64,000 nt of DNA from Microgenomates group bacterium (lineage in GTDB: Bacteria; Patescibacteriota; Microgenomatia; UBA1406; GWC2-37-13). The notes below the pieces were generated by a model. The model saw only the letters and a list, made by a program, of their open reading frames with translations, searched no databases and was not told where the DNA came from. Of the stretch, positions 45,124 through 48,670 are shown one piece after another (the stretch's first letter is position 1; each line of letters opens with the position of its first letter). The translations under genes and the position numbers were made by a program. The stretch spans positions 16,058 through 80,057 of the forward strand of contig JARYMT010000003.1 in assembly GCA_029906985.1 (NCBI GenBank). The letters run 5' to 3'.

Positions 45124-45547
45124 GTTTTTTATTTTTCGGTAATTTAATTTCTAATTTTTTATTAGCCTTTGCTACTTTGGTTTGAATTGCTTTGTCTTGA
45201 TTAGTCTTCGGTGTCTCTTCGCCTTCTAAAATTACTCTTATATGAGACAACCGATGAACAAAGGGCTTGACCCCTCCTCTTCCTCCTGCTCGATATCTTT
45301 TTAATCGACTTCCTTCTTCTATTGTCAAAAGTTTAAATTTTAATAAATTTTCATTTATTTTAGAATTGTTTTTAGCATTGTCAACTGCTGATTTAATAGC
45401 TTTATATAAAAACTGAGCACTTTTTTTATTGGAATAATAAAGCTTTGTCAATGCTTCAACTGGTTTTAGTTTTTTTATTTCTGGCAATAAAAACCTTAGT
45501 TTTTTTGGCGATATTTTTAAATTTTTGATATAAGCTTTGAATTCCAT
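45107..45547 (-). CDS. rplV: 50S ribosomal protein L22
   Basis: Lines the exit tunnel. YIKNLKISPKKLRFLLPEIK and RYRAGGRGGVKPFVHRLSHI (the tunnel loop) with VILEGEE are diagnostic. A charged C-terminal extension of about 30 residues (TNQDKAIQTKVAKANKKLEI) overlaps rpsC. It directly follows rplB because rpsS has moved away. Confidence 0.96.
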   Translation of the reverse strand: MEFKAYIKNLKISPKKLRFLLPEIKKLKPVEALTKLYYSNKKSAQFLYKAIKSAVDNAKNNSKINENLLKFKLLTIEEGSRLKRYRAGGRGGVKPFVHRLSHIRVILEGEETPKTNQDKAIQTKVAKANKKLEIKLPKNKKHGSKS

Positions 45548-45549
45548 AA

Positions 45550-46323
45550 TTATTTTCTTCTTTTAACAATTAATTTATTGCTCCATTTCTTGTGTTTTCT
45601 TGTTTTTTTCCCACGGGCCGGCTTTCCCCAAGGAGTTTTTGGATGCATCCCCTCTCCTACCCGTCCCTCTCCTCCACCATGAGGGTGGCTGCGGGGATTT
45701 TGGGCCGTCCCCCTGACGGTCGGTCGAATTCCCATCAAAATTTTTCGACCAGCCTTCCCTATAATTTTTTCTTTATATTCAACATTGCCAACCATACCAA
45801 TAGTAGCATAACAATCACCCAAAAATCTTCTTGTTTCACCTGACGGCAGTTTTAAAAGGACATATTTATCTTCTTTACCGATAATTGTCGCCGCCGAACC
45901 GGCGCCTCTGATTATTTTTCCTCCTTGACCGGGATAAATTTCAACATTATGGACTTGAATCCCGATGGGAATATTCTTTAAAGGCAAAGCATTACCAACT
46001 TTAATATCAACATTATCACCGGAAATAATTTTACTGCCTATTTTTAAATCTTTCGGATGAATAATATATCTTTTTTCTTTGTCTTTATATTCAATTAAAG
46101 CAATATTGGCGTTTCTGTTTGGATCGTACTCCACCCTGATTACTTTTCCTTCGATCCCTTTTTTGTCTCTTTTGAAATCAATAATTCGATAATATCTTTT
46201 TTGCCTTCCTCCTTGATGACGAACGCTCACTTTGCCTTGATTATCTCTGCCTGAATGTTTTTTTAAAATTTTTATCAGGCTTTTCTCCGGTTCTTGTGAT
46301 GGATTTAAGAAAACTTTTTTCAT
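45550..46323 (-). CDS. rplB: 50S ribosomal protein L2
   Basis: Core 50S protein near the peptidyl transferase centre. [40 protein letters not shown] and [14 protein letters not shown] are conserved, including the functional His of HPHGGGEG. At 257 residues it is about 18 shorter than usual at the N-terminus, which starts [16 protein letters not shown] instead of the longer GIKxxxPTTPGRR form. Confidence 0.97.
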
Positions 46324-47335: not shown

Positions 47336-48005
47336 TGGTATAAATTTTTAATAAATCACCTTTGGCTCCTGGCAATAGGCCGACAACTGAAAAACCATCT
47401 TCTTTCATATCAAATATCTCTAGGTTTTTAATCATAACCTGGCTCTGACCCATTCTGCCAGCCATTCTTTTTCCTCGATAAACGCGGCCGGGAGTGGTGG
47501 TTTGACCGATCGAACCCGGAGCTCTTTCCCGATCTGATTGTCCATGGGTTCGAGGACCGCCAGCAAAGCGATGTCGTTTGACTACTCCTTGAAAACCTTT
47601 TCCTTTTGATTTACCAACAACGTTGATTCTTTCTCCTTTTTTAAAAATCAACGTCGGCTTAATTTCTTCTCCAACAAAAATTTTCTGTTCACCAAATTGT
47701 AATCCTTGTTTTCCTTTTTCTTCGATAAGTTTTATTTCATCAGAAAATTTATCTAATCTAAATTCTTTTAAAAAACGAAGCGGGGTTTTTATCCCCGCTT
47801 TGTTTATTTTTCCTAAAATTGGTTTTTTAATATTTTTAATTTGCCCAAAACCAACTACCGCTGAAAAATAGCCATTTAATTCAGGCTTTTTGATTTCGAC
47901 AAGGTAACAAGGCGAAGTTTTAATAAAAGAGAGGACGATCCTATCGCCTTGAGAGTTATATCCTTGCCTTTGATCTATTTTTTGTCCTAAAATAAAACCG
48001 CTCAT
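47304..48005 (-). CDS. rplC: 50S ribosomal protein L3
   Basis: One of the first proteins in 50S assembly. MSGFILGQKIDQRQGYNSQG starts the protein; GKGFQGVVKRHRFAGGPRTHG, GSIGQTTTPGRVYRGKRMAG and GVLLP-like VVGLLPGAKGDLL follow. I use this ATG because the in-frame extension upstream runs through the terminator hairpin. It is the first gene after the strong promoter and leader. Confidence 0.96.
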   Translation of the reverse strand: MSGFILGQKIDQRQGYNSQGDRIVLSFIKTSPCYLVEIKKPELNGYFSAVVGFGQIKNIKKPILGKINKAGIKTPLRFLKEFRLDKFSDEIKLIEEKGKQGLQFGEQKIFVGEEIKPTLIFKKGERINVVGKSKGKGFQGVVKRHRFAGGPRTHGQSDRERAPGSIGQTTTPGRVYRGKRMAGRMGQSQVMIKNLEIFDMKEDGFSVVGLLPGAKGDLLKIYTNDYAKSKSKK

Positions 48006-48013
48006 AAATTTTT

Positions 48014-48063
48014 CGAAAAAAATAAGCCCCGGATTGGGGCTTTTTAAAGTCAACCAATCAGGG
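48014..48063 (-). promoter_or_regulatory. Putative transcription attenuator in the rplC leader
   Basis: On the minus strand AAGCCCC, loop AATCC, GGGGCTT and then ATTTTTTT form an intrinsic terminator at 48042-48014, just before the rplC ATG. Upstream, CCCTGATTGG (48063-48054) can pair with CCAATCCGGG (48037-48028) at nine of ten positions, which would destroy the terminator. A further hairpin lies at 48103-48078. This is the arrangement of a terminator/antiterminator switch. Confidence 0.6.
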
Positions 48064-48117
48064 TTTTATTAACTAAAGATTTTTTCCCAAACAAGGAAAA
48101 ATCAACATGTGGATTAC

Positions 48118-48146
48118 ATTATATAATAATGATTTCATTCGGTCAA
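48118..48146 (-). promoter_or_regulatory. Strong promoter of the S10 supercluster
   Basis: On the minus strand TTGACC, a 17-bp spacer and TATAAT form a near-consensus sigma-70 promoter. Transcription would start near 48111 and give a leader of about 105 bases before rplC. Confidence 0.75.
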
Positions 48147-48361: not shown

Positions 48362-48670
48362 TTACATTTTTACTTCGACCTCAACACCGGCTGGGAGCTC
48401 CAAATGCATAAGAGAATCAATTGTCTGATTAGTAGGATTAATTATATCCAAAAGCCTTTTATGAATTTTTAAGCCAAAATGTTCACGAGCGTCTTTGTCA
48501 GTAAAAGGAGATTTGTTAACAACATAAACTTCTTTTTTTGTCGGCAAAGGAATTGGACCAATGATTGAAGCACCTGTCCTTATTGCCGTATCAGCTAATT
48601 TTTGACAGGTTTCATCAATTAAACGATGATCATAAGACTTTAATCTAATTCTTATTCGACCCTTCGGCAT
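48362..48670 (-). CDS. rpsJ: 30S ribosomal protein S10
   Basis: RIRLKSYDHRLIDETCQKL, GPIPLPTKKEVYVVNKSPF and LMHLELPAGVEVEVKM identify S10 (102 residues); it also corresponds to NusE of antitermination complexes. Here it is separated from rplC by 356 bases with a new promoter, so it belongs to a tuf-rpsJ unit. Confidence 0.97.
   Translation of the reverse strand: MPKGRIRIRLKSYDHRLIDETCQKLADTAIRTGASIIGPIPLPTKKEVYVVNKSPFTDKDAREHFGLKIHKRLLDIINPTNQTIDSLMHLELPAGVEVEVKM

Follow-up and report, generated by a model that had tools for sequence, protein, structure and literature searches.

A nearly leaderless leader ORF in a putative ribosome-mediated transcription attenuator before the rplC operon of Microgenomates bacteria

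The rplC operon in the 64,000-nt stretch of DNA analysed here (the window) is preceded by an element that we read as a ribosome-mediated, trp-like transcription attenuator, in which a leaderless or nearly leaderless leader ORF would sense translation itself; we put the probability of this reading at about two in three. It starts from features that were observed directly, namely the anatomy of the element, its conservation, the selection on its reading frame and its potential for pairing. The DNA is from an ultra-small CPR bacterium, and Candidatus Roizmanbacteria (Microgenomates) are the named relatives nearest to it. Here rplC stands upstream of S10 genes in the order tuf, rpsJ, a 356-base gap and rplC, all on the minus strand, and the gap contains the attenuator element. 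In the S10 operon of E. coli, rpsJ is the first gene and the leader precedes it. In the window rpsJ (48362-48670) lies upstream of the promoter of the element, so that an E. coli-type leader before rpsJ is not what is found, and rpsJ falls outside the controlled unit, as the earlier note had said. The first gene of the controlled run is rplC itself (encoding L3; 47307..48005, minus strand), whose ATG lies 10 nt past the T tract and has no Shine-Dalgarno sequence. In addition, the gene rpsS (encoding S19) is missing between rplB and rplV (45547-45550), its usual place in the S10 cluster, and the coding region of rplC holds a strong GC-rich hairpin at 47773-47805 (GAAGCGGGG-loop-CCCCGCTT), which looks like a terminator on both strands.

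All parts of the element are on the minus strand. The promoter scan placed a -35 element TTGACC at 48141..48146 and a -10 element TATAAT at 48118..48123, with a spacing of 17 nt, 11 of 12 consensus matches and the joint best score in 8 kb, and the near-consensus promoter of the earlier note is thus present. Transcription is predicted to start at about 48111, and 9 nt past the -10 follows the ATG of a leader ORF (48108-48073; ATG TTG ATT TTT CCT TGT TTG GGA AAA AAT CTT TAG). This ORF of 12 codons (MLIFPCLGKNL*), which has no Shine-Dalgarno sequence, was absent from the earlier account and is the central part of the element. Hairpin 1 (48103-48078) lies within the ORF, the left arm of the antiterminator, CCCTGATTGG (48063-48054), lies 9 nt past the leader stop, and then comes an intrinsic terminator (48042-48016) with a 7-bp stem, a 5-nt loop, an A and T7, whose stem-loop (48042-48024) reads AAGCCCC-AATCC-GGGGCTT. 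The right arm of the antiterminator, CCAATCCGGG (48037-48028), covers the end of the terminator 5' arm, the loop and the start of the 3' arm, and it pairs with the left arm at nine of ten positions, exactly as had been claimed. Hairpin 1 and the terminator, both described before, are also present in the minimum-energy fold of the leader (-22.8 kcal/mol, z -1.6), which 9 of 200 shuffles equal, and the antiterminator duplex has a z of -2.2 (p 0.025). Folding and pairing in the window alone are therefore only moderately above chance.

About 130 distinct loci within the class supplied rplC upstream regions, and 36 members from the order of the window (families f1 to f3) were aligned. Four blocks are conserved in this alignment, that is the -10 (which is invariant), the ATG, the arm C(A/G)GATTGG and the terminator CCCCAATCTGGGG with its T tract, while length and sequence between the blocks vary. 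Because the arm and the terminator core are kept among members whose intervening sequence is variable, we regard the reality of the described element as settled, and the earlier proposal of a terminator and an antiterminator that exclude each other is supported. The antiterminator pairs are formed in 93.5% of the cells of the alignment, and the value drops to about 50–56% when the partner is slid by one column. Covariation, which had been suggested as proof, did not serve as such, since the arms are almost invariant within the order and antiterminator covariation there is not significant; compensated arm differences do occur between families. In a test for a contiguous antiterminator helix at single loci, 17 of 53 order loci reached p <= 0.05, and the pairing is significant only when combined over families (family-level Fisher p 4e-5). 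Furthermore, the arm and the terminator loop are conserved beyond what pairing alone requires. The model R1, which was built from the alignment, has matches in 38 of the 57 sampled genomes of relatives, one copy in each and always before rplC. The element is not general to the operons within these genomes, since rplJ carries a different region (presumably one resembling the known L10 leader) and rpsB has a plain leaderless-looking start.

The reading frame of the leader was followed across the class. Of 59 order loci, 49 have an ATG 6–11 nt past the -10, in most of them at 7–10 nt, and ATG is the commonest trinucleotide at this place; the other 10 have none at this spacing. In other families the distance from the -10 to the start codon reaches 13–19 nt, and the leader start is GTG in some distant families. 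Loci that combine a terminator with a start codon close to the -10 number 44 of 61 in the order and 54 of 67 elsewhere in the class (those with terminator and promoter), and the frame tests took in 98 loci. In 42 of 44 order loci the first in-frame stop is reached 5–35 nt ahead of the terminator core, compared with 7 and 8 in the +1 and +2 frames and 11.9 +/- 2.9 (maximum 22) in dinucleotide shuffles, and early in-frame stops number 1 where 20.9 are expected. Outside the order the leader sequences are unrelated, and the stop is placed before the terminator in 48 of 54 loci, compared with 15 and 25 in the other frames and 20.6 +/- 3.5 in shuffles. After removal of similar leaders the placement is kept in 29/30 loci of the order and 34/39 outside it, and the longer leaders stay open in frame (L004, L012, L016, L045, L057). 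Judged by these comparisons, the reading frame is shown to be under selection, with a conserved geometry and with peptide sequence and codons that are not conserved. Comparison of 96 leader peptides revealed no residue or codon run in common, only two runs of three; amino-acid-specific sensing was rejected on the lack of common codons, and a functional leader peptide was rejected on the lack of peptide conservation.

Starts at or near the end of the transcript look normal in these genomes, because rpsB of the same relatives starts 5–9 nt past a -10 and Shine-Dalgarno sequences are nearly missing from the window (4 of 52 gene starts). Among these 52 genes many start in an AU-rich context, and some appear to be leaderless. 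At the other end of the leader ORF, the antiterminator arm begins at most 10 nt past the stop in most relatives (34 of 39), and family f18, which is Levybacteria-like, has the stop codon within the arm itself, with TTGGCTACATAG pairing with CTATGTGGTCGC. Two variants of the leader were also seen. In families f9 and f42 (L145, L147, L152, L160, L185) the leader start lies within a GATATG/CATATC stem, where hairpin 1 would cover the start codon, and the promoter is TACTTTGGTATACT, partly complementary to a later ACCAAAAGT. Five Roizmanbacteria loci (L041, L044, L045, L049, L052) have lost the terminator and the antiterminator arm, and in all five the leader ORF continues into rplC, with an overlap of 50 nt in a different frame; this overlap may mark a switch to translational coupling or competition in that clade.

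Considering this geometry, we propose that transcription starts at the ATG of the 12-codon leader ORF or a few bases from it. Hairpin 1 would form within the ORF as long as this is untranslated, and it may pause RNA polymerase or slow ribosome loading. When the end of the ORF is free of ribosomes, CCCTGATTGG would pair with the emerging 5' flank and loop of the terminator before the 3' arm is made, and the antiterminator so formed would block the terminator and let the operon be transcribed. The leader ORF is probably translated, and a ribosome reaching its stop would hinder the antiterminator pairing, so that the terminator would form and transcription would end. This polarity (ribosome at the stop, terminator, operon off) is what we infer from the geometry. 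Free ribosomes would in this way repress the operon, giving negative feedback on ribosomal-protein synthesis. The ribosome is taken as the sensor because the conserved upstream feature is a start codon at the predicted transcript start plus an in-frame stop before the antiterminator, and translation capacity itself (free ribosomes) is most likely the quantity sensed, since the 96 peptides share neither residue nor codon.

Modelled pairing is consistent with this polarity in most relatives, but the model does not show masking in the window. The stretch covered by a ribosome at the stop codon was set at about 26 nt, following M. tuberculosis ilvB1, where masking by a ribosome at the leader stop has been proposed (PMC13236596). 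With only the 5' part of the terminator transcribed, the median probability of the antiterminator is 0.93 when ribosome-free versus 0.45 with a ribosome at the stop. In this crude footprint model the window, with its gap of 9 nt between stop and arm, gives 0.84 when free and 0.87 with a ribosome at the stop, so that the window itself seems a marginal case for masking. The completed terminator exceeds the antiterminator in stability (median P 0.99), and therefore the antiterminator can win only kinetically; the choice between the two structures is likewise kinetic in classical attenuators. A wider reading, in which the element is a class-wide and sequence-independent ribosome counter, and ribosomes rather than a ribosomal protein repress the largest ribosomal-protein operon in most sampled Microgenomates, is more tentative, and we hold it somewhat less probable than its opposite.

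The best surviving alternative, which we consider unlikely, is an autogenous leader, where L3, L4 or another product of the operon would bind hairpin 1 and favour the terminator, the ORF being incidental, on the model of L4 in E. coli and, in B. subtilis, of L10(L12)4 at rplJL. Ribosomal-protein operons are as a rule controlled in this way (PMC10931766), and most leaders do have a hairpin: the hairpins at the position of the ORF beat shuffles with a mean z of -1.37 in the order and -1.26 in the others (combined p 3e-11 and 3e-9, values that ignore relatedness). Moreover, TTGTTCGGGAA occurs in the hairpin in part of the family in three different reading frames and is kept even in loci without a terminator. 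Protein-binding sites that mimic rRNA are normally conserved in sequence, but the sequence of the hairpin already varies among the aligned members of the order and is wholly different between families. Conservation in relatives, which the earlier note had made a condition, is seen in the terminator core and the antiterminator arm, and in place of a binding site for L3, L4 or L23, which the note had implied, it is a start codon and an in-frame stop that are conserved. An autogenous leader also leaves the signal of the in-frame stop unexplained, and it has no match among the Rfam leader families: searches at gathering and permissive thresholds matched no family, the best permissive E being 0.23, with Phe_leader at 0.52. 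The earlier idea of an undescribed leader is supported as far as Rfam goes, and the ribosomal-protein ligand that it implied is not.

Marginally less probable still is a translated ORF with another signal or polarity, in which ribosomes stalling early, owing to uncharged tRNA or an inhibitor of translation, would leave the arm free and turn the operon on, comparable to the antibiotic-responsive attenuators. The same geometry would yield such a response, over the whole order the modelled antiterminator stays high with a ribosome near the beginning of the ORF (median 0.87), and several order peptides begin with MLxFL. Across the class, however, neither peptides nor codons are conserved, more ribosomal-protein synthesis during amino acid shortage makes little sense, and the start-stalled model lowers the antiterminator of the window to 0.21. 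A simple, unregulated terminator of fixed efficiency, which would only determine how strongly tuf-rpsJ is expressed relative to the rplC operon, is very improbable, for although there is a strong terminator after rpsJ and the completed terminator is thermodynamically preferred, the conserved arm, the dedicated promoter and the conserved reading frame would have no explanation.

The proposed ribosome-mediated attenuator resembles the trp/his/ilv type in having a leader ORF whose stop lies just before the left arm of the antiterminator, and an intrinsic terminator that excludes the antiterminator and precedes the first structural gene. It differs in that the operon encodes ribosomal proteins, there is no regulatory codon run or common residue, and the ORF lies at or near the predicted transcript start, without a Shine-Dalgarno sequence and with an unconserved peptide. 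Leaderless leader-peptide attenuators are known in Actinobacteria, such as the C. diphtheriae ilvB leader (PMC5784534), and the mycobacterial polycysteine ORFs are leaderless as well, the cysteine case being described as translation attenuation (PMC13236596). Their start codon is the transcript start, as is predicted here or nearly so, but each of those attenuators responds to a single amino acid by way of its codons and governs the biosynthesis of that amino acid. In E. coli this gene cluster is likewise attenuated by an intrinsic terminator within a leader, the S10 leader, on which L4 acts with NusA (PMC10931766), whereas the present element is short, lies between rpsJ and rplC, contains an ORF and has no conserved protein-binding hairpin. 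In B. subtilis there are L10 and L20 attenuators (PMC10931766); at rplJL, L10(L12)4 acts via an anti-antiterminator, and a leader peptide raises expression, presumably by blocking Rho (PMC4538822). The rplJL leader thus also combines terminator, antiterminator and leader peptide in a ribosomal-protein operon, but its peptide is encoded downstream of the terminator, while the ORF here is upstream.

Ribosomal-protein operons are the textbook case of autogenous control, in which a ribosomal protein binds the mRNA that encodes it. With a leader ORF in place of such control, ribosome homeostasis would follow another logic, and this in a large and mostly uncultured lineage. A literature search found no report on ribosome regulation in Microgenomates or CPR, and, with most subscription journals outside its reach, none of an S10-type operon with a leader ORF ahead of its terminator. 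The element seems to be specific to the Microgenomates class, since the rplC upstream regions of other Patescibacteria classes, compared by eye, look different and do not have this anatomy. Several families of these other classes carry a different motif before rplC, roughly AGTCC ... GGAAACT ... GTCC (L202, L206, L207, L209, L210, L211, L212, L217, L219, L220 and L222), which is possibly another undescribed ribosomal-protein leader.
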